Assembly (NCBI GenBank): GCA_017465825.1
Contig: JAFTVI010000007.1
Location: 1-50,011, forward strand
DNA from: Clostridia bacterium
GTDB taxonomy: Bacteria > Bacillota > Clostridia > Oscillospirales > Acutalibacteraceae
Length of the DNA: 50,011 bases
Direction of reading: 5' to 3'
A program made the translations under genes and the position numbers. The notes below the pieces were generated by a model. That model had not been told where the DNA came from. It did not search any database and saw nothing but the letters and a program-made list of their open reading frames with translations. Shown one piece after another: positions 6,809-48,380 of the stretch; the first letter of the stretch is position 1, and each line of letters opens with the position of its first letter.

Positions 6809-7000
6809 TAAACAATAATTTATCGGCTTTGCCGATAAAAATGAGTAAGTAGCAATTAGCAATGAGTAATGGTGGAAAGGGCGTTGCCCTTTGACCCATT
6901 TTATATAAATCAAGCCCGCAGGGCTTCCTCAATTGCTCATTTCTCACTGCTCATTGCTCATTACAATAATTTATAGGCTCACGCCTATAAATTATTGTTA
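6809..7000. repeat. Foldback element A (heptad arms, subtype AATGAGT)
   Basis: The ends are TAAACAATAATTTATCGG and an inverse copy running into TTGTTA. Each end is itself a small hairpin (TATCGG-ctttg-CCGATA and TATAGG-ctcac-GCCTATA). The arms are 7-mers (AATGAGT, AATTAGC) mirrored by TGCTCAT and TTCTCAC. The core is two hairpins, AAAGGGC-gtt-GCCCTTT and AAGCCC-gca-GGGCTT. The right end contains the TAA stop of ychF. Confidence 0.85.
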
Positions 7001-8092
7001 CACATTAAATCTGAACAGAACAATATCGCCGTCCTGCATAACGTATTCTTTACCTTCGGAGCGGACAAGACCTTTTTCTTTTGCGGCGGTCATTGTTCCG
7101 CAAGCCATAAGGTCGTCAAATGACACAACCTCTGCTCTGATAAATCCGCGTTCAAAGTCAGTATGGATTTTACCTGCCGCCTGTGGTGCTTTTGTACCTT
7201 TTTTGATCGTCCAGGCTCTTACCTCAGGCTGTCCTGCCGTAAGATATGACATAAGTCCCAACAAATCATAGCTCTTCTGAATAAGAAGGTCAAGACCTGC
7301 TTTCTCAATGCCCAATTCGGAAAGAAACATTTCCTTTTCTTCCTTGCCCAGCTCTGCAATCTGTGATTCAAGCTCTGCGCAGATGGGAAGAACCTCTGCA
7401 CCCTCTGTTGCCGCAAGAGCACAAACAGCCTTATAGCCTTCGTTTGACTCGATATCGGATGCAAAATCCTCCTCGCTCATATTGCAGGCATAGATAACAG
7501 GCTTTGCGGTAAGGAGCGCAACTGTATCGAGGAGAGCTTTTTCATCCTCGGTAACTTCAACTGCTCTTGCGCACTTACCCTCTTCAAATTCTGCCCTGAC
7601 ACGCTTGAAAAATTCAACATCCTTTGCAAAGGATTTGTCGCCTTTCATAGCCTTTGTGTCCTTGTCGATTCGTCTGTCGAGAATTTCCATATCGGAAAGA
7701 ATAAGCTCATAGTTGATTGTTTCGATATCCCTTACGGGGTCAATACTGCCGTCAACGTGAACGATATCGCCGTTTTCAAAGCATCTTACAACGTGAACGA
7801 TTGCATCAACCTCACGGATATGTGAAAGGAATTTATTGCCCAGACCTTCACCCTGAGATGCGCCCTTTACAAGACCGGCAATATCGACAAACTCAATAAC
7901 TGCGGGAGTAAATTTTTCGGGATTATACATCTCTGCAAGCTTGTCCAATCTGTAATCGGGGACGGCAACAACGCCTACGTTGGGCTCGATTGTACAGAAA
8001 GGATAGTTCGCAGACTGTGCACCTGCATTGGTAAGAGCATTGAAAAGAGTGCTCTTGCCTACGTTGGGAAGTCCTACTATACCTAATTTCAT
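6998..8092 (-). CDS. ychF: Obg-like ATPase/GTPase YchF
   Basis: A 364-residue YchF of full family length. The P-loop is GLPNVGKST near the N-terminus; the switch region is DIAGLVKGASQGEGLGNKFL; and NMSE (in VIYACNMSEED) replaces the usual NKxD, explaining the ATP preference known for the family. A helical coiled-coil insertion covers about 130-180 and a C-terminal TGS domain carries the IKKGTKAPQAAGKIHTDFERGFI signature. YchF proteins bind ribosomes and act in translation and stress responses. It is a single gene with its own promoter, and its stop codon lies inside repeat element A. Confidence 0.97.
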   Translation of the reverse strand: MKLGIVGLPNVGKSTLFNALTNAGAQSANYPFCTIEPNVGVVAVPDYRLDKLAEMYNPEKFTPAVIEFVDIAGLVKGASQGEGLGNKFLSHIREVDAIVHVVRCFENGDIVHVDGSIDPVRDIETINYELILSDMEILDRRIDKDTKAMKGDKSFAKDVEFFKRVRAEFEEGKCARAVEVTEDEKALLDTVALLTAKPVIYACNMSEEDFASDIESNEGYKAVCALAATEGAEVLPICAELESQIAELGKEEKEMFLSELGIEKAGLDLLIQKSYDLLGLMSYLTAGQPEVRAWTIKKGTKAPQAAGKIHTDFERGFIRAEVVSFDDLMACGTMTAAKEKGLVRSEGKEYVMQDGDIVLFRFNV

Positions 8093-8109
8093 TATTATTC
8101 ACCAATCCT

Positions 8110-8171
8110 TTGCAGTATAACTGCAATTTTAAAATTCATCATATTTTAACACATATTTTTTAAGATTGCAA
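8110..8171 (-). promoter_or_regulatory. Promoter and leader hairpin of ychF
   Basis: On the minus strand TTGCAA (8166-8171), a 17-base spacer and TAAAAT (8143-8148). The leader contains a perfect 7-bp hairpin, TTGCAGT-ATA-ACTGCAA (8110-8126), shortly before the start codon. A second 8-bp inverted repeat, AGTGATAC/GTATCACT, lies upstream at 8233-8256. Confidence 0.6.
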
Positions 8172-8284
8172 CATTTATATAATGCGGTTGCAAAACAGGT
8201 TATTCTGTGGGATTTTCATCCGCCCGAATCGCAGTGATACCGCTTGTTGTATCACTACATTATATGATTTTTTTGTTTGCGTGT

Positions 8285-8462
8285 TAAACAATAATTTATC
8301 AGTTAGTAGTTAGGAGTGAAAAGTGAGAAGTGAGGAGTGAAGGAAAAGGCTCCGCCTTTTGAACCATTTGAATCCATGCCGCTTTGCGGCTTCCTTAACT
8401 CCTAACTCATCACTCCTAACTCCTAACTACAACAATTTAGCGGTACGCTAAATTATTGGTTA
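8285..8462. repeat. Foldback element B (heptad arms, subtype AGTGAGA)
   Basis: TAAACAATAATTTATC starts the element and TAAATTATTGGTTA ends it. The left arm is a clean series of 7-mers (AGTTAGG, AGTGAAA, AGTGAGA, AGTGAGG, AGTGAAG). The right arm answers with TCCTAAC and TCATCAC units. The core hairpins are AAAGGCTCCGCCTTT and GCCGC-ttt-GCGGC. Element F at 22.2 kb is a nearly identical copy in the opposite orientation. The right end contains the TAA stop of the 8460-9737 gene. Confidence 0.85.
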
Positions 8463-9737
8463 TACAAGCTTTCTGTTCATCATTTCCTGTGCGGCGAGAA
8501 GGACACCGATTTTACCGCTGTGGAAGTTAAGACCGCCCTGCATCCATACAGCAAAAGGCTCACGGAGCGGAGCATCTGCCGACAGCTCAATTGACGAGCC
8601 TGATGTGAACGCGCCTGCGGACATAATTACCTGATTGTCATAACCGGGCATATCCCAGGGCTCGGGAGTTACATATGAGTCAACAGGGGCGCCTTTCTGC
8701 AGTCCCTGACAGAATGCAATAAGATTTTCCGAATTTTCAAGGCAGATTGCCTGAATAATATCGTGACGTTCCTCATCGGCTGTGGGAGTTACCTTAAAGC
8801 CTAATTCAGTAAAGACGGATGCCGCGAAAACGGCAGTTTTAAGAGCCTCGCCAACCACGTGCGGAGCGTGGAAAAGTCCCATAAAAAGGCTTCTGTTCTG
8901 ACCGAGCGTTGCACCCAGCTCCGTACCCAGACCGGGTGTTGTAAGTCGGTATCCGCAAAGCGTAACAAGGTCCTTACGACCTGCTATATATCCGCCGCTT
9001 GCCGCCATTCCGCCTCCTGCATTTTTAATGAGTGAACCTGCAATAAGATCTGCGCCAACTTCGGTAGGTTCGAGCTTTTCGGTAAATTCGCCGTAGCAAT
9101 TATCAACCATTACGATTGCACGTCCGTTTACTCTGTGAACGATATCACATACCTTTCTGATTTCCTCTATGGAAACCGTATGTCGGAGTGAGTAGCCGCG
9201 TGAACGCTGAATGTACACCATTTTTACAGCTTTATCTGCCGCACTTTTTTCAATAGCTTCATAGTCAAGCTCATCATTTTCAGTCATATCCACCTGTGCA
9301 TAATGCACGCCGAAATCAGAAAGCGTTCCGTCGCCTGCATTTTTGCCGTTCAGTCCGATTGTGGAGTGAAGTGTGTCGTAGGGAGTACCCGTAACACAAA
9401 GCATAACGTCGTCCGGTCTTAAAATTCCGTAAAGACAGACCGCAAGGGTATGCGTGCCGCTTGAAAGTGCACCCGAACGTATAATTGCACTTTCTGCGCC
9501 GAAAATATCAGCCGTGAGCTCGTCAAGCTTTTCTCTGCCCTTATCCGAATATCCGTAGCCTGTTGTTGTGTTGAAATCCGTTTCGTCAACACGGTTTCTG
9601 ATAAATGCAGAGAGTACCTTATGCTGATTGTACTCTGTTATTTCATCAATCCTTGCAAAGCTCGGTTTTGCGTTTTCAAGAGCTTTTTCGGAAATATCAA
9701 GCAATTTTTTATCAAAATTAAAGAATAGGTTTTCCAT
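8460..9737 (-). CDS. PLP-dependent methionine gamma-lyase-like (aluminum resistance) protein
   Basis: A 425-residue fold-type I PLP enzyme of the 'aluminum resistance'/methionine gamma-lyase-like family common in Firmicutes. The Schiff-base lysine is most likely K238 in GSLIKNAGGG, with the cofactor aspartate in VDNCYGE (D212). Other conserved stretches are RSGALSSGTHTL and TPGLGTELGAT. ATG 9737 is chosen because AAAGGAG lies eight bases upstream; the open frame continues to 9761 without an RBS. The substrate is not established for this branch; C-S lyase activity is the family inference. No distinct promoter is seen, so it may be read from the upstream PHP gene through repeat C. Confidence 0.9.
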   Translation of the reverse strand: MENLFFNFDKKLLDISEKALENAKPSFARIDEITEYNQHKVLSAFIRNRVDETDFNTTTGYGYSDKGREKLDELTADIFGAESAIIRSGALSSGTHTLAVCLYGILRPDDVMLCVTGTPYDTLHSTIGLNGKNAGDGTLSDFGVHYAQVDMTENDELDYEAIEKSAADKAVKMVYIQRSRGYSLRHTVSIEEIRKVCDIVHRVNGRAIVMVDNCYGEFTEKLEPTEVGADLIAGSLIKNAGGGMAASGGYIAGRKDLVTLCGYRLTTPGLGTELGATLGQNRSLFMGLFHAPHVVGEALKTAVFAASVFTELGFKVTPTADEERHDIIQAICLENSENLIAFCQGLQKGAPVDSYVTPEPWDMPGYDNQVIMSAGAFTSGSSIELSADAPLREPFAVWMQGGLNFHSGKIGVLLAAQEMMNRKLV

Positions 9738-9762
9738 ATTCTTACTCCTTTTACAGAACAAT

Positions 9763-9801
9763 CTCCCGATGCCAAAACCGACTTCGGGAGTTGATTTTTT
9801 T
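9763..9801. promoter_or_regulatory. Hairpin in the leader of the PLP-enzyme gene
   Basis: CTCCCGA (9763-9769) pairs with TCGGGAG (9784-9790). Read on the plus strand it is followed by TTGATTTTTTT like an intrinsic terminator, although no plus-strand gene is nearby. On the minus strand it lies in the 5' leader about 25 bases before the start codon. It may end antisense transcription or shape the leader. Confidence 0.4.
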
Positions 9802-9816
9802 AGTTTTTTTAAGAAA

Positions 9817-10087
9817 TAAACTATTGTTTACAATGAGCAAAGAGCAGTGAGAAATGAGCAATTGCGGAAGCCCTTCGGGCTTGATTTATACAAGAAAACG
9901 GATTTCGCCGTATTGCGGCGACCGTTTTCGGTTAGTCCATCTCCGAGCACGCGTAGCGGGCGTTCGGAGGGACATATAATCTTTTTACTTTATGGAAACG
10001 CAGTTTCCTGTAAAGTAAAAAAGGGTTAAAGGGCAACGCCCTTTCCACCATTACTCACTACTAATTTCTAATTACTCATTTATTGAA
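9817..10087. repeat. Foldback element C (largest core, extra hairpins)
   Basis: It starts with TAAACTATTGTTTA and continues in 7-mers (CAATGAG, CAAAGAG, CAGTGAG, AAATGAG). The far arm is ATTACTCACTACT-type units ending in CATTTATTG. The standard core (AAGCCC-ttc-GGGCTT and AAAGGGC-aac-GCCCTTT) is in reverse orientation. About 130 bases with three additional hairpins (around 9896-9930, 9942-9972 and 9983-10018) separate the two core stems. Confidence 0.75.
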
Positions 10088-10110
10088 TTGACGAGAAATA
10101 CATCTCTATA

Positions 10111-11379
10111 TTATTTATGAATAAAGGCTCTGTCAATGATAACGCCAAGGCGTGTATCAAAGAACTTCTTTTTCATAATTTCTGCCTTTGTTTCGGGCTT
10201 TTTGAGAGGTGTGGGGTCAATAAATCTTTCCATATTGCCGTCGTCGCAGATGAACGCCTGTGTCATACAGATACCGCCTCTGCCCTTGAGCTGTGCGCGC
10301 ACATAACAGCTGATTTTGTCGCTGTGGTCGCAGAGTTTTATGGTTGAAGTCAGTTCACCGTCATTTTCGCTTGTAACGGCATCAATAACCTCACCGTCGG
10401 CAATCCACTCGATAGCCTTACAATTGATACCGCTGACTGTGATCTCATCCTCGCCTACGCTGATAGCTTTGACAACGGGATAAGGACCTTCGCCTACAAA
10501 ATCCTCGCCCATTTCATTCTTTGCATATCTTGCAACGGGGAAGAAATGACCTTTTTCCATAGCATTACGGAGATTTTCAAGAGAATATTCGGGAAGAATG
10601 AAATCCATAAATGCGGTGTCGATCTCCCTTACCCTGTGAGCGTCGCTGTTGCCGAAGCCCCATACTGTACGCTCACCCTCGGGAATGAGCATCTTAAGAA
10701 GTCCGTCCCAGAGGATTCTGTCACTGCGGTTAGGGCCGTCGTACATATTGAGAACTTCAATACCCAGACAGGACTTATATCTTCTTAAAAGGTCTGCGAA
10801 AAATCTTACATTTTCAGGCTTTCTTGCATTGTCGGGATGCTTCCACGCCATAAGCCAGTCGGTAGGATGGTTGATGTGTGAAAGTCCGCCGCTCTTTTCG
10901 ATTTTAGCAATGGGAATTTCATAATCGTTTTCCTTGCCGCAGATACCCTCGCAGGCGTCATCGGTAAAATAGCCGTTGACGTGATTTTTAACAAGTGTGA
11001 ACATATTTGCCTCGATAGCATCGGGTACGCACATAAGACCTCTTTTCTTTGTGCGCTTACCTGCCTTTGTTTTGTAAGTGCCGTCGAGAATTGCGTGATA
11101 CTGCTCGGTTGTGGGATGCTCGCGCTTGCCGTGCCAGAGATTCTGGAACAGGAACAGCGGAATGATTGAAGGGTCCTGATCCCACTCCTTGCCGTGAATG
11201 CCGTGTTCAGCCATAGCAAGAATGTCAAAATCATTGTCGTAGAAGCCCTCAATGATCTCGGTCATTGTGTTGTTGGCATCGGAATATGTTGAATGAGTGT
11301 GCAGATTGGTTTTGTAATGCTTTTCGTCGTCCCCCATAAGAGAAACTACGTCTGCATAGGGATTTGTGATTTTATACAT
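10111..11379 (-). CDS. PHP-domain metal-dependent phosphoesterase-like protein
   Basis: A 422-residue PHP-domain protein. Metal-ligand motifs visible: NLHTHSTYSD (H27 and H29), AEHG (E58, H59), SHINHP in the middle and GNSDAH further on. This is the usual set for a trinuclear-metal PHP phosphoesterase. A beta-rich C-terminal part of about 130 residues (VSGINCKAIEWIADGEVID) follows. The start overlaps the end of the GPH transporter gene by 8 bases, so the two are co-translated and probably act on the same, unidentified, imported compound. The substrate cannot be told from sequence. Confidence 0.88.
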   Translation of the reverse strand: MYKITNPYADVVSLMGDDEKHYKTNLHTHSTYSDANNTMTEIIEGFYDNDFDILAMAEHGIHGKEWDQDPSIIPLFLFQNLWHGKREHPTTEQYHAILDGTYKTKAGKRTKKRGLMCVPDAIEANMFTLVKNHVNGYFTDDACEGICGKENDYEIPIAKIEKSGGLSHINHPTDWLMAWKHPDNARKPENVRFFADLLRRYKSCLGIEVLNMYDGPNRSDRILWDGLLKMLIPEGERTVWGFGNSDAHRVREIDTAFMDFILPEYSLENLRNAMEKGHFFPVARYAKNEMGEDFVGEGPYPVVKAISVGEDEITVSGINCKAIEWIADGEVIDAVTSENDGELTSTIKLCDHSDKISCYVRAQLKGRGGICMTQAFICDDGNMERFIDPTPLKKPETKAEIMKKKFFDTRLGVIIDRAFIHK

Positions 11380-12862: not shown

Positions 12863-12893
12863 AATATGTCACCCTTTCGTGTTTATAAAAGCA

Positions 12894-12924
12894 ATTGTAG
12901 CACATATTTACATTTTAGTAAATA
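12894..12924 (-). promoter_or_regulatory. Promoter and palindromic operator of the GPH-PHP operon
   Basis: Minus-strand TTTACT (12917-12922), 17-base spacer, TACAAT (12894-12899). A 7-bp inverted repeat TATTTAC/GTAAATA (12905-12924) overlaps the -35 and the spacer, the typical place for a repressor. No candidate regulator gene is adjacent. Confidence 0.55.
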
Positions 12925-12950
12925 GGAATGGGAAATTTATTTTATAAAAT

Positions 12951-13066
12951 AATGAGCAATTAGCAGTGAGTAATGGCGGAAAGGGCGTTGTCCTTTAACC
13001 CGTTTTTATAAATCCAAGCCCGTAGGGCTTCCTCAATTGCTCATTCCTCACTGCTAATTACTCATT
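12951..13066. repeat. Foldback element D (heptad arms, no TAAACAATAATTTA ends)
   Basis: 7-mers AATGAGC, AATTAGC and AGTGAGT on the left, with TCCTCAA, TTGCTCA and TTACTCA on the right. The core hairpins AAAGGGC-gtt-GTCCTTT and AAGCCC-gta-GGGCTT match element A. Neither terminal hairpin is present, so this is a core-plus-arms copy. Confidence 0.8.
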
Positions 13067-13094
13067 AAAAAGAGCCGCTTTTCGCGACTCTTTT
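13067..13094 (-). terminator. Terminator of hpf
   Basis: AAAAAGAGCCGC (13067-13078) faces GCGACTCTTTT (13084-13094) with one G-U-type pair and a short T-rich loop. On the minus strand it is followed by TTTTTAATG. It starts 4 bases after the hpf stop and abuts element D. Confidence 0.8.
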
Positions 13095-13097
13095 GTA

Positions 13098-13622: not shown

Positions 13623-13676
13623 AAATACATCCCCTTTACTTGAAATTCGGGATAAAAGATTATCCTTTACATTTTT

Positions 13677-13705
13677 AATATAACACATTTTCATATCAAA
13701 GTAAA
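13677..13705 (-). promoter_or_regulatory. Promoter of hpf
   Basis: Minus-strand TTTACT (13700-13705), 17-base spacer, TATATT (13677-13682), about 50 bases before the start codon. The -35 is weak by sigma-A standards; a stationary-phase sigma factor cannot be excluded. Confidence 0.5.
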
Positions 13706-13879
13706 TATCATTTTGGATATTTTTTATAAAATTTTAAATTCAATATGTTTATTTTTTACACAATATAACAAATGTACACATTTTGCAACAAAATATAAAA
13801 TTCGCAAATCTTTCAATATCTCTGCGATTGCAACGGATATTTTTGTATATTTATATAAATAAAATAAATGGAAAAATGC

Positions 13880-14135: not shown

Positions 14136-14159
14136 TCAATTTTAAACAAGGTGATTAAT

Positions 14160-17000: not shown

Positions 17001-17666
17001 ATGAAAAAGCTGATATCATTTTTAGTTATCATTGCCCTGTCTGTAGGTATTGTTATCGGCGCGCACAACATTTTTGACAACGATGTTGACGGACATTTTA
17101 CGGCAAGAAATGCAAAGCTGCCCGAAAATCTTATGCTTGTGAACGCGTGGAATGAAATAGACGAGGATTATGAGTTTGAAACCGTCACGCTGACTAACGG
17201 CGAAATAATAAACGAGCTGATTTACCCTGACTTGCAGAGTATGTTTAACGATGCGAGAAATTCAGGTATCGACCCTGTTGTAACATCAGGCTACAGGACT
17301 TTGGACAAGCAACAGCAATTATATGACGACAAGGTCAACGCTTATATTGACGAGGGATATTCACGGGATGAGGCTGAAGAAAAAGCCAACGAGTGGGTCG
17401 CTTTGCCGGGTTACAGCGAGCATCATACGGGACTTGCCGTTGACATCAACGCCCGTGAGGGGGCAAGTGAAGAAGTGTATAAGTGGCTTGAGAAAAATTG
17501 CCACAAATACGGCTTTATTCTCAGATACCCCGCAGACAAAACGGAAATTACAGGCATAAATTACGAGCCCTGGCATTTCAGGTACGTAGGCTATGAAGCC
17601 GCAGAATACATATATGAGCACGGTATTACACTTGAGGAATATCTTGAAAATGTGTATGAACAATAA
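17001..17666 (+). CDS. VanY/DacY-like D-Ala-D-Ala carboxypeptidase (M15B)
   Basis: A 221-residue zinc carboxypeptidase anchored by an N-terminal helix (LISFLVIIALSVGIVIGAH) and acting outside the cell on peptidoglycan stem peptides. M15B motifs are complete: SGYR (96-99), SEHHTGLAVD (139-148, with Zn ligands H141 and D148) and EPWHFRYVG (189-197, with the general base E189 and ligand H192). There is no vanA/vanH/vanX context, so this is a housekeeping cell-wall enzyme, not a vancomycin-resistance operon. GGGGTGG precedes the ATG. Its TAA stop lies in the end of repeat element E. Confidence 0.93.
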   Translation: MKKLISFLVIIALSVGIVIGAHNIFDNDVDGHFTARNAKLPENLMLVNAWNEIDEDYEFETVTLTNGEIINELIYPDLQSMFNDARNSGIDPVVTSGYRTLDKQQQLYDDKVNAYIDEGYSRDEAEEKANEWVALPGYSEHHTGLAVDINAREGASEEVYKWLEKNCHKYGFILRYPADKTEITGINYEPWHFRYVGYEAAEYIYEHGITLEEYLENVYEQ

Positions 17667-17796
17667 ATTTAATGTACAATTTACAATGTACAATGTACAA
17701 TTAACGGATAATATATAAATCGGGTTAAAGGGCGGAGCCCTTTCCACCATTGTACATTATACATTGTACATTATTAATTCGCTAAATTATTGTTTA
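17659..17796. repeat. Foldback element E (heptad arms, subtype TGTACAA)
   Basis: AACAATAAATTTA starts the element and TAAATTATTGTTTA ends it. The left arm is TGTACAA, TTTACAA, TGTACAA, TGTACAA; the right arm is TTGTACA, TTATACA, TTGTACA. A single core hairpin, AAAGGGC-gga-GCCCTTT, is in reverse orientation. Nearly identical to element I at 44.3 kb. Confidence 0.85.
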
Positions 17797-19101: not shown

Positions 19102-19133
19102 CGTAGGGCGCGACGAGGGCGTCGCTCCCTACG
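19102..19133. repeat. REP-like GC-rich palindrome
   Basis: CGTAGGG at 19102-19108 and CCCTACG at 19127-19133 enclose GCGACG-aggg-CGTCGC. Relatives occur at 29461-29486 and 29726-29747. Located in the lacZ 3' region. Confidence 0.75.
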
Positions 19134-19164
19134 ATGTATCATCAACATTCTGCTGAATCATTGC

Positions 19165-22335
<3,171 letters not shown>

Positions 22336-22751: not shown

Positions 22752-25250
22752 ATGAAACAAAGATTTAATATTACGGGAATGTCCTGCTCTGCCTGCAGTG
22801 CGGCGGTAGAACGGAGTGTAAACAGACTTGCCGGCATAAAAAGCTGTCAGGTCAGTCTGCTTACAAACTCAATGACGGCAGAATTTGACGAAAATATCAC
22901 GTCCTCTGCTGAAATAATTTCTGCTGTAAAAAGCGCAGGCTACGGCGCAGAAATTTACGGAGCAAAGCAGGAGAAAAAAGAAAGAAAAGACGATGATTTA
23001 AAGCAGATGCAGACAAGGCTGATCGTATCATTTGCCTGCCTTATTCCTCTGATGTATATTGCTATGGGGCATATGATTTCTCTGCCGCTCCCCTCCTTCC
23101 TCACAGGCGTGCAAAACGGCGTATCATTCTCATTCATTCAGTTTCTGCTCACTCTGCCCATAATGTACGTGAACAGAAAATATTATATCAACGGCTTTAA
23201 ATCTCTTTTTCACCGTTCGCCGAATATGGACACTCTTGTTGCAACAGGTTCACTTGCGGCAATTCTGTACGGCATTTACTCTGTTTTTGCAATCGGTAAC
23301 GCAATCGGAAAGGGCGATACTGCAACAGCGGCTGAGTATCTGCACAATCTTTACTTTGAATCGGGTGCGATGATACTTACTCTCATCACCCTGGGCAAAT
23401 ACTTTGAGGCTCGTTCAAAGAAAAAAACATCCGATGCAATATCAAAGCTCGTTGAGCTCACTCCCGATACCGCGACCGTTGAAAGAAACGGCAAGGAAAC
23501 TGAAATTTCAACCGATGAAATAAAAATCGGCGATATTGTTATTGTTAAAAACGGCAGGAGTGTTCCTGTTGACGGAACCGTTATCTCAGGCTTCGGCACG
23601 GTTGATGAATCGGCAATCACAGGTGAAAGCATACCTGTTGAAAAAAATTCAGGTGATTCCGTAACAGGCGGAACTGTCTGCAAAAGCGGATATTTCAAGT
23701 TCACAGCGAAGAAAATCGGCAACGACACGGCTCTTTCAAAGATTCTCCGTCTTGTGGAGGATGCCGCCGCATCAAAAGCTCCCATTGCAAAGCTTGCGGA
23801 CAAGGTCAGCGGCGTATTCGTGCCCGTTGTTATGGCAATTGCAGTTATCACCTTTATCCTGTGGATGATTGTAAAAAATGATTTCAATCTTGCCCTCGAC
23901 CTTTCAATTTCCGTGCTTGTTATCTCCTGCCCCTGCGCGTTGGGACTTGCAACGCCAACCGCCATTATGGTAGGTACAGGCAAAGGCGCATCAAACGGAA
24001 TTCTCATCCGCTCCGCTGAAAGCCTTGAAACCGCTCACAAAATAAACACCGTTGTGCTTGACAAAACAGGCACCGTAACTGAAGGTATGCCCTCGGTTAC
24101 AGACATTATCCCATCGGCGCAGAGCAATAAAAATGAGCTGTTACACTTTGCATATTCCGCAGAAAAGCTCTCGGAGCATCCGCTGTCAAAGGCTATTGTA
24201 AAAAAAGCAGAGAGCGAAAACATATCTGCTTTTGAATGTTCGGATTTTAAAAATATACAGGGCAGAGGTATCAGCGTAAAAGCAGATGACGCTCTTGTGC
24301 TTGCTGGAAATCCCGCAATGATGCATGAGAATAATATTGACATATCCGCCCTCAGCAGTCAATACGATTTACTGACTTCACAGGGAAAAACTCCCCTTTA
24401 CTTCGCTGAAAACGGCAGACTTCTCGGCATCATTGCCGTTGCAGATACCATTAAGGAAACGAGCGCATCCGCTGTTGCTGAATTGAGAAAAATGGGCATT
24501 GACGTTATTATGCTCACAGGTGACAACGAGAAAACAGCTAAACATATTGCCGAAAAAGCAGGCATCTCAAATGTTATTTCGGATGTACTTCCCGACGGAA
24601 AAGAGGAAGTTATTCGCAATATTCAGCAACAGAATAAGACCGTTGCAATGATTGGTGACGGAATCAATGATGCGCCGGCTTTAATGCGAGCCGATGTTGG
24701 AATTGCAATCGGCGCAGGTACGGATGTTGCCATTGAATCGGCAGATATCGTGCTTATGAAAAGCGATCTCAATGACGCGGTGGGTGCAATCAAGCTCAGC
24801 AAGGCTGTAATAAAAAACATCAAGCAGAATCTGTTCTGGGCATTTTTCTACAACGCGTTAGGCATTCCCCTTGCGGCAGGCGCACTGCTCATCCCCCTCG
24901 GCATTAAATTAAGTCCGATGATTGGCGCAGCGTGTATGAGCTTAAGCTCCGTCTGCGTTGTATCGAATGCCTTAAGGCTCAGATTTTTTAAATTAAAAAA
25001 AGAAGTCCCCGAAACGGGAACAAAAGAAAGGATTTTTAATATGAAAAAGACAATCTACATTGACGGAATGATGTGCAACCACTGCACCGGCAGAGTTGAC
25101 AAGGTGCTCAATGCCATTGACGGCATTGAGGCGACCGTAAGCCTTGAGGACAAATGCGCCTACGTAACCCTCACAAAGGACATCGCAGATGCAGACCTCA
25201 AAGCAATAATCGAGAATGAGGGATATACGGTGGTTGAGATTAAACAATAA
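22752..25250 (+). CDS. copA: Cu(I)-exporting P1B-ATPase CopA fused to a CopZ-like domain
   Basis: An 832-residue copper exporter. The N-terminal metal-binding domain has CSAC (12-15). The ATPase has TGES (290-293), the membrane CPC (393-395), the phosphorylated DKTGT (437-441), the HP pair in SEHPLSK and GDGINDAPAL. Helices 7 and 8 carry NALGIPLAAG and MSLSS, as in Cu+ pumps. The usual CopA ends near residue 748; here it runs through a short linker (KEVPETGTKERIFN) into a complete 69-residue heavy-metal-associated domain with CNHC (775-778), resembling the free chaperone CopZ. An internal RBS and ATG precede that domain. The stop codon is supplied by repeat G. Confidence 0.95.
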   Translation: MKQRFNITGMSCSACSAAVERSVNRLAGIKSCQVSLLTNSMTAEFDENITSSAEIISAVKSAGYGAEIYGAKQEKKERKDDDLKQMQTRLIVSFACLIPLMYIAMGHMISLPLPSFLTGVQNGVSFSFIQFLLTLPIMYVNRKYYINGFKSLFHRSPNMDTLVATGSLAAILYGIYSVFAIGNAIGKGDTATAAEYLHNLYFESGAMILTLITLGKYFEARSKKKTSDAISKLVELTPDTATVERNGKETEISTDEIKIGDIVIVKNGRSVPVDGTVISGFGTVDESAITGESIPVEKNSGDSVTGGTVCKSGYFKFTAKKIGNDTALSKILRLVEDAAASKAPIAKLADKVSGVFVPVVMAIAVITFILWMIVKNDFNLALDLSISVLVISCPCALGLATPTAIMVGTGKGASNGILIRSAESLETAHKINTVVLDKTGTVTEGMPSVTDIIPSAQSNKNELLHFAYSAEKLSEHPLSKAIVKKAESENISAFECSDFKNIQGRGISVKADDALVLAGNPAMMHENNIDISALSSQYDLLTSQGKTPLYFAENGRLLGIIAVADTIKETSASAVAELRKMGIDVIMLTGDNEKTAKHIAEKAGISNVISDVLPDGKEEVIRNIQQQNKTVAMIGDGINDAPALMRADVGIAIGAGTDVAIESADIVLMKSDLNDAVGAIKLSKAVIKNIKQNLFWAFFYNALGIPLAAGALLIPLGIKLSPMIGAACMSLSSVCVVSNALRLRFFKLKKEVPETGTKERIFNMKKTIYIDGMMCNHCTGRVDKVLNAIDGIEATVSLEDKCAYVTLTKDIADADLKAIIENEGYTVVEIKQ
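25041..25250 (+). CDS. Possible internally initiated CopZ-like copper chaperone
   Basis: In frame inside copA, AAAGGA (25027-25032) lies 8 bases before ATG 25041, as at an ordinary gene start. Initiation there would release a 69-residue protein with GMMCNHCTGRVDKVL and the compact fold expected of CopZ, delivering Cu(I) to CopA. Either an ancestral copA-copZ stop codon was lost and the RBS is a relic, or both the fusion and the free chaperone are made. Confidence 0.4.
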   Translation: MKKTIYIDGMMCNHCTGRVDKVLNAIDGIEATVSLEDKCAYVTLTKDIADADLKAIIENEGYTVVEIKQ

Positions 25251-25279
25251 TTTATCGCACAGCGATAAATTATTGTTTA
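25241..25279. repeat. Foldback element G: perfect 39-bp palindrome between convergent genes
   Basis: TAAACAATAATTTATCGC, 3-base loop ACA, then the exact inverse. It is an outer hairpin of the family without arms or core. It contains the TAA stops of both copA (25248-25250) and the minus-strand regulator (25277-25279). Confidence 0.9.
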
Positions 25280-27696: not shown

Positions 27697-27776
27697 TAAA
27701 TAATAATTTATCGGCAAATAGGTTGGCTAATCGTATGGGGTGACACGCCCTACAGAACACTGCTAAATTATTGTTA
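27697..27776. repeat. Foldback element H (short copy)
   Basis: TAAATAATAATTTATCGG at the left and GCTAAATTATTGTTA at the right, with 50 bases between that do not show heptad arms. A degenerate member that retains the ends. Confidence 0.6.
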
Positions 27777-29380: not shown

Positions 29381-29460
29381 ACTACTGCTGATTGTGTCGG
29401 CGGTATTTTTTATTTTTCACATAAAATTTAGATATAAAATAAGTGATGCATTAGCGTACC

Positions 29461-29747
29461 GTAGGGCGCGTCGCCCCCGTCGCGCCGATTGATAAAAATG
29501 TACCATATTTATCAATAAAATACCTGCACAAAATCAACAAAAACACAGGGCTCCCTCAATGAGGGAGCTGGATTTTGCGAAGCAAAAGACTGAGGGAGTT
29601 AAAATTTGCAGTAATTTTACTCCATCCGTCGCCTTCGGCGCCACCTTCCTCAAAGAGGAAGGCTTGCTCTCTTTTTTTGATTTTGTTCGTTTATATGTAA
29701 TAATCCAAATAGATTTGGATTATTCGGAGCGACGAGGGCGTCGCTCC
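29461..29747. repeat. Cluster of palindromes in a 480-bp gene-free stretch
   Basis: 29381-29863 has no convincing gene. It holds a GC palindrome related to 19102-19133 at 29461-29486 (GGCGCG/CGCGCC). GGCTCCCTC-aat-GAGGGAGC lies near 29549-29569, TTTTGC-gaa-GCAAAA near 29573-29587, CTTCCTC-aaa-GAGGAAG near 29645-29661, AATAATCCAAAT/ATTTGGATTATT near 29699-29724, and GGAGCGACG-aggg-CGTCGCTCC at 29726-29747. The GGGAGC/GAGGAAG type is a familiar interspersed motif in gut Clostridia genomes. Confidence 0.6.
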
Positions 29748-29809
29748 CTACAATTTCCAATCAATTCTACATTAATTATTGATTAAGAATTAAAAACATT
29801 TTGCAACAA

Positions 29810-42007: not shown

Positions 42008-42142
42008 GAATTATCCTCCGTTCGTCGTTTTATCCGTAGAATAATACCAAATTTTAGGGTATTGAAATCTGAGAATTTTGTGCTATAATTTTAGTGAAAA
42101 TCCTCGTCAATCGAACACCATTCCATTATGATACAGCTTACT

Positions 42143-42171
42143 ATTTTACACAAGTAAAGTCAATTTGTCAA
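42143..42171 (-). promoter_or_regulatory. Promoter of rpoB-rpoC
   Basis: Minus-strand TTGACA (42166-42171), 17 bases, TAAAAT (42143-42148). The leader is about 130 nt and contains AATACC/GGTATT around 42043-42063. The 42008-42344 gap holds only this and the divergent guaB promoter. Confidence 0.7.
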
Positions 42172-42276
42172 GAGTAAATTTCAAGTTTTTCAAAAATTTT
42201 TATCACATTTAATATATTTATTTTTAAAACATCTTTAATTTTGTAACTCAAAAACCGATAAATTTAAAAAAATGTG

Positions 42277-42305
42277 TTGAACAGTATTCAAATATGTTGT
42301 ATAAT
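42277..42305 (+). promoter_or_regulatory. Promoter of guaB
   Basis: TTGAAC (42277-42282), 17-base spacer, TATAAT (42300-42305), with a leader of about 30 nt, too short for a purine riboswitch. Confidence 0.75.
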
Positions 42306-42311
42306 AGCTGA

Positions 42312-43829
<1,518 letters not shown>

Positions 43830-43852
43830 TTGTAAATATAAAAGGTGATATT

Positions 43853-44188
43853 ATGAGTAAAAAATCATCGGCCGGCATCTCAGCATACGGTACACAGCTT
43901 GTAAATCCTGCAGGAAGAAGCAACCACCCCGTAAGAAGCAGATATATGGCGGCGGCTCTTGCAATACTCCTGGGCGTTGTGGGCGCGAACCACTTTTACC
44001 TGAGAAACGTGGTAAGAGGCATCCTTATGGTGCTTGTTACAGCGGTATGTATTGTCCTTGACGTGTTTGCCGTTTTCAGCTTTAAATTCATACTTATCCC
44101 CGTTATTCTTTCGGTTCTGACAGGTCTTTCCTATCTCATAACATCGGATAAGAAATTCAGCAAAAGAAACCATATAAGAATAGTTTAA
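43853..44188 (+). CDS. TM2-domain membrane protein
   Basis: A 111-residue protein with an N-terminal soluble stretch of about 30 residues and a TM2 domain: RYMAAALAILLGVVGANHFYLRNVVRGILMVLVTAVCIVLDVFAVFSFKFILIPV. The G-x-H-x-F-Y motif that defines the family (GANHFYL) is present. Function of bacterial TM2 proteins is not established. AAAGGTGAT precedes the ATG; it lies downstream of guaB and is closed by a terminator. Confidence 0.85.
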   Translation: MSKKSSAGISAYGTQLVNPAGRSNHPVRSRYMAAALAILLGVVGANHFYLRNVVRGILMVLVTAVCIVLDVFAVFSFKFILIPVILSVLTGLSYLITSDKKFSKRNHIRIV

Positions 44189-44198
44189 TAAAAATCTG

Positions 44199-44235
44199 AA
44201 TCCCGGGTTGCCGTAAGACAGCTTGGGATTTTTTA
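44199..44235 (+). terminator. Terminator of guaB-TM2
   Basis: AATCCCGGGTTG (44199-44210) pairs with CAGCTTGGGATT (44219-44230) over 12 bp with G-U pairs, then TTTTT. Confidence 0.85.
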
Positions 44236-44252
44236 TGTATTGATTTATGAGA

Positions 44253-44390
44253 TAAACAATTAATTTAATGTACAATTTACAATTTACAATGTACAATTAA
44301 CGGATAATATAAATCGGGTTAAAGGGCAGAGCCCTTTCCACCATTGTACATTATACATTGTACATTGTTAATTAGGTAAATTATTGTTTA
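44253..44390. repeat. Foldback element I (subtype TGTACAA)
   Basis: TAAACAATTAATTTA to TAAATTATTGTTTA. Arms TGTACAA, TTTACAA, TTTACAA, TGTACAA with TTGTACA, TTATACA, TTGTACA; single core hairpin AAAGGGC-aga-GCCCTTT. It is a near-copy of element E 26.6 kb away, and the core G-to-A change falls in the loop. Confidence 0.88.
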
Positions 44391-44412
44391 CTTTATTAAA
44401 ACTTTCATCAAA

Positions 44413-44452
44413 CAAAAAAAACCGGGACTATCTCACTCAACGAGGCAGTCCC
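44413..44452 (-). terminator. Terminator of the zinc operon
   Basis: GGGACT (44424-44429) with AGTCCC (44447-44452) plus an inner CTC/GAG pairing; on the minus strand followed by GGTTTTTTT. Lies 15 bases after the ZIP stop. Confidence 0.75.
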
Positions 44453-44467
44453 TTTAATCATATTCAA

Positions 44468-45223
44468 TTATCCCAGAAGCACGTCGGAAACGAGCATTAC
44501 GCAAAAACCGACAAGCAACGCATAGGTTGCACCTCTCTGCGCGCCGTGTGCGTGAGTTTCGGGTATCATTTCATCGCTTATGACATAGAGCATAGTACCG
44601 CCTGCGAATGCCAATGCAAACGGAAGAATGGCAGATGCAACACTTACCGCAAGATAGCCCAACAGCGTGCCCAATACCTCAATCAAGCCTGTTGCCGCCG
44701 CATAGATAAACGTCTTTTTAGGACTTATACCTGCCGCAAGCATAGGGCCGATAATAACCATTCCCTCGGGAATGTTCTGCAACGCGATACCGCCTGCAAT
44801 AAGGAGCGCTTCACTTGTATTTCCCGAGCCGAAGCCAACACCTGCGGCTATTCCTTCGGGAAGATTATGAATGGCTATTGCGGCAACAAACAAAAGCACC
44901 TTGTTAAGCTTTTCATTACCACTGTGCTCTTCATCCTCAGTGCCTGCAAGACGGTGAAGATGCGGCACGAGCTTATCAATAAGGTTAAGGCACACCGCAC
45001 CTGCAAAAATGCCGGCAACGGTAATGATTATACCGTATTTCCCGCCGTAATCAAGTGACGGAATGATAAGTCCGAGTACAGCGGCGGCAAGCATAACACC
45101 AGCGGCGAAGGACAGCACGATATCACTGAATTTATGGGAAATTTTCTTGAATGCAAAGCCCGTAACCGCTCCGATGAGTGTTGCTCCGCCAACACCCAAT
45201 GCAGTAAGAAGTACCATTTCCAT
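44468..45223 (-). CDS. ZIP-family divalent metal transporter
   Basis: A 251-residue, eight-helix ZIP transporter, probably importing zinc. The metal-site helices carry HNLPEG and QNIPEG, and SDEMIPETHAHG follows. A cytoplasmic loop with HLHRLAGTEDEEHSGNE lies between helices 3 and 4 and could bind metal. The gene follows the deoxyribosyltransferase gene with a 12-base gap and is the last of an apparent operon that includes two G3E GTPases. The context favours zinc over iron or manganese, but sequence alone does not decide it. Confidence 0.92.
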   Translation of the reverse strand: MEMVLLTALGVGGATLIGAVTGFAFKKISHKFSDIVLSFAAGVMLAAAVLGLIIPSLDYGGKYGIIITVAGIFAGAVCLNLIDKLVPHLHRLAGTEDEEHSGNEKLNKVLLFVAAIAIHNLPEGIAAGVGFGSGNTSEALLIAGGIALQNIPEGMVIIGPMLAAGISPKKTFIYAAATGLIEVLGTLLGYLAVSVASAILPFALAFAGGTMLYVISDEMIPETHAHGAQRGATYALLVGFCVMLVSDVLLG

Positions 45224-45235
45224 ACAATCACCTCA

Positions 45236-45667
45236 TCACAGCAGTTTTATGCAGTCCTCAAATCCGCCGTTCACAATCTGAGCAGATTGAGCAAGCATAA
45301 GATTCAGCGGATGCCCGAAATCCTCGGTCACTCTCCCCTGCTCGTCGGTTTTGCCGTATTTTTCAATAAGAGAATCGGTATTATCCATATAAATAAGGAT
45401 TCTTTTGCCTTTTGCGGCGGCATAGCCAACCTCAAAGGCTGTGCCCACGTCCATTTCACCGCGAAACGGATTCCCGTTGGCAATAACCGCATCTGCAATT
45501 TCTATAAGATTTACATTACCTTTATATATATCGTATGAAGAATCGCATTCATTATCAAGAGGATAAAGTCCCTCGTGACCGTAACGCACGCATACAGACT
45601 TATATTTTTTACCGATTTCAACCGCATCGGGTTCAAAAACATCAGGACCTGCAATATATATCTTCAT
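45236..45667 (-). CDS. Nucleoside 2-deoxyribosyltransferase-like protein
   Basis: A 143-residue protein of the nucleoside 2-deoxyribosyltransferase family: MKIYIAGPDVF at the N-terminus, LYPLDNECDSS, the active-site region ADAVIANGNPFRGEMDVGTAFEVGYAAAKGKRILIYMD with the family glutamate. Members move deoxyribose between bases or hydrolyse deoxynucleotides. It lies 1 base from the upstream GTPase gene and 12 from ZIP, so it belongs to the metal operon, though its role there is unclear. Confidence 0.88.
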   Translation of the reverse strand: MKIYIAGPDVFEPDAVEIGKKYKSVCVRYGHEGLYPLDNECDSSYDIYKGNVNLIEIADAVIANGNPFRGEMDVGTAFEVGYAAAKGKRILIYMDNTDSLIEKYGKTDEQGRVTEDFGHPLNLMLAQSAQIVNGGFEDCIKLL

Positions 45668-45668
45668 A

Positions 45669-46619
45669 TCAATAGAATGTTGCTACGGTTTCTTCGGGCG
45701 GATTTGTCTTTGCAACATCAATTGCAGTAAGAACGGGACCCTTTCTGCCGTAAATTTTGCTGAATTTAATATCGATTTTTGCTGTAAGCCATATCCAATC
45801 CGCATTGTTAACGGTGTCTGCGCCCTGCCAGTTTACAAGCATACCGCAGTAAGTGATATCATCCGCACAGCAGGTCATAATATGTCTGCCGCAAACGAAC
45901 GTATCTGCAGGAAATTTTTTGTTGACGGCGCAAATGCCCTTGAATTTAACGGTTTTGCCGTCGTACTGCTTCATATTCTCCATAATATCACGGTAGAGCA
46001 GAGCAAAATCCCTGTCCTCAACCTTTATAACATCCGCGTTCACGTCAAAGGGCAGAGGGTCTTCAATCTGGTCAAATTCCGAAGTGCCGTCATCAAAATC
46101 ATAAATGATGTCACATCTTCTTGAAATTCCTCTTACGATTTTGTGGTAAGGCATTCTGTCATCCGACTTGTTAAAGCGGTTGAAAGCCACCATTTCACAG
46201 TTGCTCAGCTTATCCACAACAAGACTTCTCATATTTGCATTGTACTGCAGAAAGGTTTTGCTGTCTGCAAGGAAAATGAGCTGATAAATCATCCAGCCGT
46301 CGGGCATAGCTTCAAAGAAATCGTTGACAAGCCACATTCCGTTGTACTCAACAAGTACACGCTCAGCTTTGATTTCACTTGCCCATTGTGCAAGGTTTTC
46401 GGTGGTCATTTCGGACTTATCTTCAATGACTTTTATATGCACGTTGTTTCCGATAAAAGAAGATGTGTTATACTCCTCCTCTCCCTCTTCACAAACAAGC
46501 AGAAGTGTTCTTTCGCCCGAATTGAAACGGTCATCCTCAAGGGTTTCCTGAATGAACGTGGTCTTTCCGCCCTCAAGAAAACCCGTGAACATATATACGG
46601 GCAGTTCTCTGGTTTTCAT
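45669..46619 (-). CDS. G3E (CobW-like) GTPase fused to a DUF1980/TIGR03943-type domain
   Basis: A 316-residue two-part protein. The N-terminal half is a G3E GTPase (Walker A GFLEGGKTTFIQ at about 13-24; VEYNGMW in the switch region), but it lacks the metal-binding CxCC motif of COG0523 proteins. The C-terminal part (about 225-316) shows YDGKTVKFKGICAVNKKFPADTFVCGRHIMTCCADDITYCGMLV ... WIWLTAKI, the TIGR03943/DUF1980 pattern usually seen as the soluble partner of a putative permease. ATG 46619 follows AAAGGAG; the frame upstream runs through repeat J and is not coding. Likely role in metal delivery; inference from family and neighbours. Confidence 0.82.
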   Translation of the reverse strand: MKTRELPVYMFTGFLEGGKTTFIQETLEDDRFNSGERTLLLVCEEGEEEYNTSSFIGNNVHIKVIEDKSEMTTENLAQWASEIKAERVLVEYNGMWLVNDFFEAMPDGWMIYQLIFLADSKTFLQYNANMRSLVVDKLSNCEMVAFNRFNKSDDRMPYHKIVRGISRRCDIIYDFDDGTSEFDQIEDPLPFDVNADVIKVEDRDFALLYRDIMENMKQYDGKTVKFKGICAVNKKFPADTFVCGRHIMTCCADDITYCGMLVNWQGADTVNNADWIWLTAKIDIKFSKIYGRKGPVLTAIDVAKTNPPEETVATFY

Positions 46620-46636
46620 ATTATAATCTCCTTTTG

Positions 46637-46856
46637 TAAACAATAATTTAGCGATATGTTGCTGACGCAACGCGATATGTTTACAACGCGATATATTTGT
46701 CGCTTTGCTCAAATGCGATATGATATAAATCCACGTGCCGACAGGCACATATCGTATACGAATGTATATATCGCACCGTCATGTATATCGCAAATCCGTT
46801 TACGGATTTATATCGCTACAATAATTTATCGGCAGATGCCGATAAACTATTGTTCA
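46637..46856. repeat. Foldback element J (GCGATAT heptamers alternating with mini-hairpins)
   Basis: TAAACAATAATTTA to TAAACTATTGTTCA. Four GCGATAT units (46651, 46672, 46688, 46715) are separated by small hairpins (GTTGC-tgac-GCAAC, GTT-tac-AAC, ATTTG/CAAAT). Four ATATCGY units mirror them (46749, 46768, 46785, 46810), with TATAC-gaat-GTATA and AAATCCG-ttta-CGGATTT between. The centre is GTGCC-gaca-GGCAC. The outer right end carries the TGA stop of the His-rich GTPase gene. Confidence 0.85.
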
Positions 46857-48002
46857 AACTCCAAATAATTCTTTCAACGCATCTTCGTTAATTTTTGAAC
46901 CGATAACGCAAAGTCTGCCGATGATTGATGCACTGCCGGAACGAACGTCTGACTCATCGGGAACATAGTCAAAATGAATCCACTTGCCGTCTGTGCCCTG
47001 AACGATACCCTTTGCTCTGAGAATCATACCGTATTTATGCATATCTTCAAGCGCATCAAGGCAATTTTTAATTTCATCCTCAGTGAATTTCTTTGTGGTT
47101 TCAACACCCCAGCTTGTAAAGACTTCATCTGCGTGGTGGTGATGATGTTCGTGCTCGTGGTCGTGACAACCGCAGTTGCAATGCTCGTCGTGTTCGTGAT
47201 GATGCTCGTGTTCGTGATGATGCTCGTGTTCGTGGTGATGCTCGTGTTCGTGGTGATGCTCGTGTTCGTGGTGATGCTCGTGTTCGTGGTGGTGCTCGTG
47301 TTCGTGGTGGTGCTCGTGGCATCCGCAATCACAATCTTCATCGTGTTCGTGGTGATGATGGTGATGATTATGTTCATCGAGAAGTTCATCAAGCTGAGCG
47401 GAAAGAGTGTCCTTTCTTTCTATAGCATACGCAATCTGCTTGCCGTCAAGCTCATCCCAGGGAGTGGTGATGATAACAGCCTTTTCATTGTGCTGTCTGA
47501 GCAATTCAACTGCAGTTTTCAGCTTTTCGTCGGAAACATCACCGGAACGGCTGAGAACAATAGTGCCTGCGTGCTCGATCTGGTCATTGAAAAACTCGCC
47601 GAAGTTCTTCATATACATTTTGCATTTACCGGCGTCAACAACTGCGGTAAAGCCGTCAAGCTCTATATCGTGTGACTCAATTTTAAGCACAGCCTTGATA
47701 ACATCGCTGAGCTTGCCTACGCCAGAGGGCTCAATAAGAATTCTGTCGGGAGCGTAATCCTCAAGCACCTTTTCAAGAGCCTTGCCGAAGTCGCCCACAA
47801 GTGAGCAACAGATGCACCCCGAATTCATTTCGGTGATTTCAACGCCTGCATCCTGTAAAAATCCGCCGTCAATGCCGATTTCGCCGAATTCGTTTTCAAT
47901 AAGCACAAGCTTTTCGCCTGCATATGCTTCCTTAATAAGTTTTTTAATAAGTGTGGTCTTGCCCGCGCCTAAAAAACCTGAAAAAATATCAATTTTAGTC
48001 AT
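46854..48002 (-). CDS. His-rich COG0523 G3E GTPase (zinc metallochaperone type)
   Basis: A 382-residue CobW-family GTPase. Walker A GFLGAGKTTLIKKL (9-22), the metal motif NSGCICCS and the G3E Glu in LIEPSGVG. A remarkable metal-binding insert covers about 212-300: DEHNHHHHHHEHDEDCDCGCH, then repeated HEHHHE units, then DEHCNCGCHDHEHEHHHHH. It is flanked on both sides by a CxCGCH motif. The C-terminal CobW_C domain (TEDEIKNCLDALEDMHKYGMILRAKGIV) follows. Such proteins hold zinc and hand it to client enzymes. With the ZIP gene downstream, zinc homeostasis is the likely job. No clear Zur box was found. Confidence 0.92.
   Translation of the reverse strand: MTKIDIFSGFLGAGKTTLIKKLIKEAYAGEKLVLIENEFGEIGIDGGFLQDAGVEITEMNSGCICCSLVGDFGKALEKVLEDYAPDRILIEPSGVGKLSDVIKAVLKIESHDIELDGFTAVVDAGKCKMYMKNFGEFFNDQIEHAGTIVLSRSGDVSDEKLKTAVELLRQHNEKAVIITTPWDELDGKQIAYAIERKDTLSAQLDELLDEHNHHHHHHEHDEDCDCGCHEHHHEHEHHHEHEHHHEHEHHHEHEHHHEHEHHHEHEHHHEHDEHCNCGCHDHEHEHHHHHADEVFTSWGVETTKKFTEDEIKNCLDALEDMHKYGMILRAKGIVQGTDGKWIHFDYVPDESDVRSGSASIIGRLCVIGSKINEDALKELFGV
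47203..47310 (-). repeat. 18-bp minisatellite coding for HEHHHE
   Basis: Six consecutive 18-bp units (tgctcgtgttcgtggtga type) differing at only one or two third positions, with a partial unit on each side (an expanded one at 47182-47202). Each unit adds six residues, so slippage changes the metal-binding capacity in frame. Confidence 0.9.
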
Positions 48003-48058
48003 TTCATTCGCCTTCCGTTTTTATGATGAATATATTATACCACCGTTGTCAAGAGGGA

Positions 48059-48380
48059 TAAACAATAATTTATCGCACAGCGATAAATTATTGCAGTGAT
48101 ATATTTTTCCTACGGAAAAATGTGATATATCCGCTGTTGCGGATGTGATATATTTGCTTTTCAAATGTGATATAATTTGCCTTCGGCAAATTGTTGAGGA
48201 AGCCGCAAAGCGGCTTAAATTTTAATGGGTAAGGGCGAAGCCTTTCCACAATATTTGCCATAGGGCAAATATATCATTTGACCGTAGGTCATATATCATT
48301 TTGCGTAGCAAACCATCATTTGCCGTAAGGCAACCATCATTACAATAATTTATATGCGTGAGCCTATAAATTATTGTTTT
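48059..48380. repeat. Foldback element K (GTGATAT heptamers alternating with mini-hairpins)
   Basis: TAAACAATAATTTATCGC, with a complete terminal hairpin, to TAAATTATTGTTTT. Left: four GTGATAT units (48096, 48122, 48145, 48167) with hairpins ATTTTTCC-tac-GGAAAAAT, ATCCGC-tgtt-GCGGAT, ATTTG/CAAAT and ATTTGCC-ttc-GGCAAAT between. Core: AAGCCGC-aaa-GCGGCTT and AAGGGCGAAGCCTTT. Right: ATATCAT or CCATCAT units (48271, 48293, 48313, 48334) with TGACC-gta-GGTCA, TTTGC-gta-GCAAA and TTGCC-gta-AGGCAA between. Confidence 0.88.

Follow-up and report, generated by a model that had tools for sequence, protein, structure and literature searches.

A 50,011-nucleotide contig (JAFTVI010000007.1, hereafter the window) from the 2.2-Mb draft genome of a Clostridia bacterium of the Acutalibacteraceae with relatives in the ruminant gut (GCA_017465825.1; G000 below) carries short intergenic foldback elements, many of which have arms built of 7-base units (heptads). 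We describe them as a new family resembling miniature inverted-repeat transposable elements (MITEs), with apparent exchange of interiors at fixed sites: comparison with related species suggests that the middles have been exchanged between copies at the same places. On balance, we favor the view that the family is a large set of MITE-like, non-coding elements of about 35-320 bp with near-identical 13-14-bp inverted ends at TA, of which the sites have long been inherited and the interiors replaced. This view is built on the ends of the copies, their preference for TA, their overlap with stop codons, orthologous sites that are filled in one genome and empty in another, common positions whose interiors differ, similar copies in each genome, chimeras, and an end variant specific to one species (G150). 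Inherited ends and replaced interiors are the simplest account of these observations. An earlier note on the window, made from that one stretch, could not reveal the main point, namely that orthologous ends stay and interiors differ.

Shared sites with different interiors in related species

Element ends with an orthologous outside flank were compared among G000 and other members of its genus, a shared end being accepted up to ~20 bp past the aligned flank. Within aligned DNA, G151 and G153 are 86.9% identical, the other pairs among G150-G153 81-82%, and G000 is 75-76% identical to these four. Ends were filtered by removing 66 of 325 as unsupported and then 87 of the remaining 259 as probable inner copies or arms. 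All genomes are drafts, G151, G153 and G108 at least being metagenome-assembled genomes (MAGs), and the stretches were selected around elements or hits, with contigs often ending in elements, so that the fractions given here are not free of bias. Of the comparisons between G151 and G153, 23 of 29 showed the end in both species; the proportion was 14 of 26 for other pairs among G150-G153, 12 of 41 between G000 and G150-G153, and 0 of 5 against G154, G157 or G080. Since comparisons were run both ways, one site may count repeatedly, and the G151/G153 rows represent roughly ten distinct shared sites. Before the filter for inner copies, 26 of 33 G151 ends were common to G153.

None of the 48 scored pairs retained its interior between species, the top score being 27.5 of 100. 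Scores between G151 and G153 were 6-13, save for four rows from two sites at 26-27.5; random G151-G153 pairs gave a median of 10 and a 90th percentile of 17, with 0.4% reaching 40. The best paralogue in the same genome, in contrast, scored 42-100 for the 22 scored G151/G153 ends. The differences start directly at the unique flanks and are thus hardly due to assembly error; some chimeras or joins could be artefacts.

At one site (L008:4781-4910), both flanks are common to five species and each species has another interior: TGTACAA-type in G000, GTGATAT in G150, AATTCG-type in G151, GTTAGGA in G152 and non-heptad in G153. The left end is degenerate in G151, so altered that the site was scored absent for G153 versus G151, and the G150 site consists of two contigs, each breaking in the element. 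An unusual right end, AA[AG]TCAGAATTTATCGGGATA, is common to G150 and G152, with divergence beyond it. Next to a gene that we take to be ychF (copy A of the window), G000, G151 and G153 have elements whose end lies at the identical base, G150 has an end and part of an arm, and G152 has a possible remnant; the place of copy B is likewise occupied by elements in G151 and G153, by an end and part of an arm in G150, and possibly by a remnant in G152. At two sites the outermost variants are equal in G151 and G153 (GTGAACA, AAAAACA), and at a third they are partly so (ACAAAC). Among rows whose paralogue score was 35 or higher, solo end palindromes were found where the sister species has a palindrome plus arms, which fits deletion between inner and outer end copies.

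G150 is rich in copies, and AAACAGTAATTT-type ends were found there at 16 of 18 fetched loci, over different interior types, 14 of these 18 loci having been chosen for likeness to one GTGATAT-type copy. The change in this end is compensated within the palindrome, the pair concerned being GC in 11 cases and AU in 7 and never broken, which fits one element type spreading over old sites.

Some larger differences between genomes were seen beside elements. The segment L008:9989-11420 lies between two elements in G000; in G152 a distance of ~1.1 kb separates the flanking genes, and the match to the segment lies on another contig. In the draft assemblies, the flanks of one G151 element map to two different G153 elements, as if exchanged (L089:8675-8909, L170:1724-1894, L193:142, L090:142). 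Sequence breaks near elements exist; given the generally low synteny and the contigs that terminate in elements, we make no claim of rearrangement.

Ends, target sites and extent of the family

The family has the features of bacterial MITEs, being short, non-coding and multi-copy, with terminal inverted repeats and a fit to TA targets, but is without a known autonomous partner. Its 14-mer end, TAAACAATAATTTA, occurs 135 times (65+70) as exact matches in the 2.2 Mb of G000, the reversed control giving 0. A T precedes the AAAC of 90% of 93 exact G000 ends, and the target consensus consists of TA plus a weak A at -2, with nothing further. Orthologous sites that are occupied in one genome and empty in another accord with insertion at TA (L096:5912 versus L095; L097:8966-9155 versus L098; L089:18893 versus L090; and L008:15976, filled in G000 and empty in G151 and G152), few of these pairs being clean on both sides. 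The earlier note had proposed a non-autonomous transposable element, and the ends shared across the genome, the T at -1 and the filled and empty sites support this proposal. It had also named three outcomes that would count against its reading (no further copies in the genome, no empty orthologous sites, and arm pairing no better than in shuffled sequence), none of which occurred.

An element end closes two reading frames within ten bases. For 33 of 110 G000 ends, the stop codon of the neighboring gene lies in the first 10 nt (17 at base 0, 16 at base 7), counting frames open for at least 80 codons and with distance classes as the only yardstick; for the remaining ends the stop lies 3-30 bp before the end in 5 cases, 31-100 in 23 and 101-300 in 32, with none in 17. 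The end likewise holds the stop codon at 6 of 21 G151 and 11 of 29 G153 ends, and does so in window copies A, B, E, G and J.

Across the 11 genomes of the genus, the 13-mer end was counted 166 times in G000, 128 in G151, 123 in G153, 31 in G152 and 7 in G150, and 0-2 times in each of the six other members (G154-G158, G080), with reversed controls at 0-3. In the family, 19 of 150 genomes matched the 14-mer, G000 included, and G021 (13) and G108 (11) alone outside G000 had more than 4 matches. Single matches are near chance, because the reversed control matched 1-2 times in 11 of the genomes searched. G108, which has solo palindromes and different arms, appears to be a true relative, and L186, from a roe deer gut MAG (RGIG4537), has the heptad arms and end palindrome of the window family. 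G021 was not counted as a member, as it has the same 14-mer in opposite orientation to another interior; its loci (L025-L032) hold a different repeat with TAAATTATTGTTTA outermost, and several contigs start near this repeat. A lead to type I restriction specificity (HsdS) genes was also dropped. By eye, such genes in G030, G040 and G043 hold the 14-mer as pairs of inverted sites (L021-L024), with an integrase-like gene adjoining in G030 and G043 and an arrangement as in phase-variable systems; in HsdS-like genes the 14-mer presumably reads as a coding motif, INNNLEQQA, and the 14-bp identity is probably a coincidence through that motif. Three pattern searches of viral contigs gave 0 matches, and phage records, among which near ones may be absent, gave none to copy A.

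The anatomy of the family was taken from 63 end clusters in 196,817 fetched G000 bases chosen around hits, a few of the clusters looking like chance. Copies in G000, those of the window included, measure 35-322 bp. One set of ends bounds many interiors, with TGTACAA, AATGAGC, GTTAGGA/GTGAGGA, GCGATAT, GTGATAT, AAGTAATAG and AATTCATAATTCAC arms, a non-heptad type with GTAGGG...CCCTACG hairpins, and solo palindromes. Many copies have the 13-14-bp inverted ends on both sides and others have one or none; additional end copies lie inside many elements, and two elements are neighbors at L011:11050-11734. Copies within one subtype differ by entire 7-mers, in either arm.

Re-reading of the window found all eleven stretches (A-K) that the earlier note had listed as intergenic copies, at the coordinates below, followed by two copies missing from its list.
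Copy A, 6809..7000: AATGAGC-type arms, two core hairpins and end hairpins; right end overlaps the ychF stop codon, 3 bases from a tRNA-Arg
Copy B, 8285..8462: GTTAGGA/GTGAGGA-type arms; right end overlaps a methionine gamma-lyase-like gene at its stop codon
Copy C, 9817..10087: AATGAGC-type arms, extra core hairpins, altered ends
Copy D, 12951..13066: AATGAGC-type arms and core, without the 14-bp ends
Copy E, 17659..17796: TGTACAA-type; left end overlaps a VanY-like carboxypeptidase gene at its stop codon
Copy F, 22184..22335: GTTAGGA-type, left palindrome and arms, inverse of B
Copy G, 25241..25279: solo 39-bp end palindrome holding the stop codon of a heavy-metal P-type ATPase gene
Copy H, 27697..27776: probably what remains of a copy of the non-heptad (GTAGGGCGCG...) subtype; z of the fold -1.8, not significant
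Copy I, 44253..44390: TGTACAA-type, near-copy of E
Copy J, 46637..46856: GCGATAT heptads with local hairpins between them; right end overlaps a CobW-like gene at its stop codon
Copy K, 48059..48380: GTGATAT heptads interleaved with local hairpins; a palindrome at each end
Extra copy, about 19107..19167: non-heptad subtype, decayed
Extra copy, 29451..29785: non-heptad, in two parts (29451-29522 and 29696-29785) with other sequence between

No open reading frame of at least 80 amino acids lies entirely within any of A-K. The shared ends that most copies were said to have are present on the left of A, B, F, G, J and K, are altered in C, E, H and I, and are missing from D. The near-identity of B and F in inverted orientation (89% over 124 nt) and that of E and I (direct near-copies, 95%) were as described. 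Copy G had been taken for an element of 7-bp units and is instead a solo palindrome made of both ends; after the same ATPase gene the element is absent in G150, G151, G152 and G153. Copy H resembles a non-heptad remnant rather than a heptad copy, with a 39-nt match to the non-heptad subtype that has the same ends. The region from 28 to 44 kb is not element-free as had been stated, since it holds the split non-heptad copy. Within the CobW-like gene (46854-48002) lies an 18-bp tandem repeat (47131-47399), probably a histidine-rich stretch as read at the nucleotide level.

The earlier note had also proposed looking for a transposase with matching ends. None was found in a search covering two transposase families and part of the end sites. 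Visual inspection of the listed G000 and G153 sites showed no gene-bearing element with matching ends; one end pair ~2 kb apart encloses, as judged by eye, a transporter-like gene. Derivation from an IS630/Tc1-mariner element was not supported, DDE_3 exceeding the cut-off in 0 of 11 draft genomes of the genus, with one weak sub-threshold match in G155; a lost or remote IS630-type enzyme is compatible with this result. Assignment to REP/REPIN elements mobilized by RAYT was not supported either, as the ends are without GTAG or CGTC tags. The Y1_Tnp domain (RAYT/IS200 type) was matched once in each of G150, G151 and G152 and twice in G155 but gave no hit in G000 or G153, and so does not follow the element.

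Folding of the elements and competing explanations

DNA folding energies were compared with those of 100 dinucleotide shuffles per copy, with 31 window pieces as controls. Copies A-K gave z scores of -8.7, -8.3, -8.2, -5.3, -6.6, -7.6, -9.9, -1.8, -6.2, -7.3 and -10.9, so that all except H fold far beyond shuffles, and the controls had a mean of -0.74 and a minimum of -4.15. The 7-base register described in the earlier note was borne out in 14 arms excised from A-F and I, 13 of which were long enough for lags 7 and 14: mean self-identity reached 0.75 for a lag of 7 and 0.73 for a lag of 14, the remaining lags from 2 to 13 giving 0.21-0.32. Complementary 7-mers do occur in the opposite arm, those of J and K included, but the arms of J and K are not contiguous complements, having local hairpins between. 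Nor is the matching of arms across subtypes strict, as 4 of 47 G000 elements join, by eye, arms of two subtypes (L005:13358, L008:9850, L009:13304, L011:11564); their arm scores of 0.20-0.24 are similarly low in J/K-type and a few badly trimmed copies, from which this score by itself cannot separate them.

The earlier note took conserved pairing as a sign of selection on a folded form, a suggestion that found no firm support. An element acting through its fold, for instance as a terminator, attenuator or protein-binding site, would explain the significant folds of 10 of the 11 copies, the location at gene ends and the compensation of 3 of 52 predicted pairs across 18 half-elements. The covariation term, on the other hand, was -0.6 within -49.6 kcal/mol, interiors at the same site differ across species, solo palindromes and chimeras exist, and Rfam at its gathering threshold matched in the window a tRNA alone, and thus no known structured RNA family for the elements. 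One compensated change separates the ychF-site palindromes of G151 and G153. In the end palindromes of G000, 89 of 101 stem positions were paired (shuffled mean 81.8, maximum 89); by the same test G151 and G150 showed no excess, and G153 fell under the mean, an off-centre hairpin defeating the symmetric rule; we draw no support from this comparison. Template switching can also restore pairing in DNA palindromes. Because of this, and because unmatched arms are tolerated, compensatory pairs do not prove selection. We consider a selected structure highly improbable.

Should sites be inherited and interiors replaced, as we favor, the ends would persist over long times and the interior (arms and core hairpins), often with the ends, would repeatedly be replaced by another copy from the same genome, each species rewriting the shared sites with its own prevailing subtypes. 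Such replacement would be non-reciprocal, one copy overwriting another by gene conversion or template switching at the hairpins of end and core, and would not pass through excision and a second insertion at the same TA. The solo palindromes may be deletions between an inner and an outer end copy, the original insertions may be owed to an unseen or lost transposase, and the growth of 7-mer arms and their near-perfect pairing would be by-products of replication slippage and hairpin-templated correction, not selected RNA. More tentatively, the family might form a docking-site system, with inherited ends at gene borders receiving interchangeable hairpin cassettes and boundary-precise exchange letting one type sweep many sites, their positions unchanged.

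Several observations weigh against inherited sites with replaced interiors. Roughly five sites occur in G151 or in G153 but not in both; G150 and G153 have an element at one site where G151 has none; and sharing is uneven by pair (G150-G151 2/8, G150-G153 7/8). The outermost bases differ, too, at most other shared sites, and the T before AAAC is found at 71% of the 42 exact ends of G151 and G153. The two G151/G153 sites scoring 26-27.5 exceed the random 90th percentile of 17 and have some likeness left. The paralogue scores are partly built in, since the admission of an end required either a palindrome or a paralogue scoring 35 or more, and without the later filter the best paralogue is below 35 for 9 of 26 shared G151 ends. 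No transposase with these ends was found, and mobility is deduced from how the copies are distributed. For recombination of the RecA type, 13 bp of end is short, and in G150 replacement extended to the ends themselves, which leaves room for re-insertion of whole elements at the same TA.

Such independent re-insertion would consist of precise excision followed by the landing of different copies at one small set of permissive TA sites (at stop codons or in short spacers), shared position then reflecting target preference. The preference for stop codons, the site empty in G151 and filled in G150 and G153, and the replaced ends of G150 all accord with it. Inherited ends are preferred because target preference alone explains neither the pooled fall in sharing with divergence (23/29, 14/26, 12/41, 0/5) nor the non-consensus end bases that species share at two to three sites; the odd right end common to G150 and G152 and a target consensus limited to TA and a weak A at -2 likewise argue against re-insertion, which we regard as unlikely. 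We find it less probable still that a new element inserts at a TA beside or inside an old one and that deletion between matching ends then drops the old interior, leaving the outer borders unchanged. The additional end copies within many elements, the solo palindromes facing a palindrome with arms in the sister species and the adjacent elements at L011:11050-11734 would all be expected from such stacking, but few tandem intermediates were noticed, and an active transposase would still be required.

Known repeats and significance

A literature search, with most subscription papers outside its scope, gave among the entries listed no description of the window family or of interior replacement at fixed sites. 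Cyanobacterial STRR are heptanucleotide repeats; tandem 7-bp units of that kind are present here, yet within bounded elements, and the family was thus not classed as STRR. Galileo/Foldback elements are of kilobase size. As far as the accessible text of the sources cited in this paragraph goes, Galileo/Foldback of Drosophila has internally repetitive foldback ends and undergoes ectopic recombination between copies (PMC2775673, PMC3573991) and, unlike the window family, is eukaryotic and grouped with P elements by its transposase. RUP of Streptococcus pneumoniae (107 bp, inverted ends, TA target, 108 copies; PMC2229807; PMC3049150) is a TA-inserting MITE ascribed to IS630-Spn1 and resembles the window family in its inverted ends and TA target, but is a single repeat whose ends match IS630-Spn1, whereas the window family has many interior types, interiors that differ at shared sites and no DDE_3 above the cut-off in the genus. 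ERIC/RU-1 of enterobacteria have TA at their ends, a TA duplication and stem-loops, some lying at gene 3' ends (PMC2759123); 7-mer arms are not described in that text, and RU-1 fuses with and lengthens genes, whereas ends of the window family provide stops in two frames. BOX of streptococci is a composite modular repeat with a variable number of units (PMC3049150), its boxA/boxB/boxC modules varying in size by boxB number and not by interior replacement. BrickBuilt of Porphyromonas gingivalis is a MITE containing a tandem-repeat array (PMC4596501), of 23-nt units as opposed to 7-mers. The TAACTGA heptanucleotide repeats of Beggiatoaceae are 7-bp units, mostly intergenic, in 169 direct sets and one inverted (PMC4679880); bounding mobile ends are undescribed in that text, whereas the heptads of the window family are arms inside bounded elements. 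REP/REPIN are GTAG- or CGTC-tagged palindromes (PMC3733652), as against the TAAACAATAATTTA ends found here.

Repeats of the kind found in the window break draft assemblies. Short bacterial repeats are usually held to spread by insertion and then to decay in place. In the present family, positions persist and contents turn over rapidly, sister species that are 87% identical having kept no interior at the compared sites. Compensatory changes in such repeats need not imply a selected RNA. If exchange is the cause, then very short homology or hairpins would drive frequent non-reciprocal transfer between dispersed loci.

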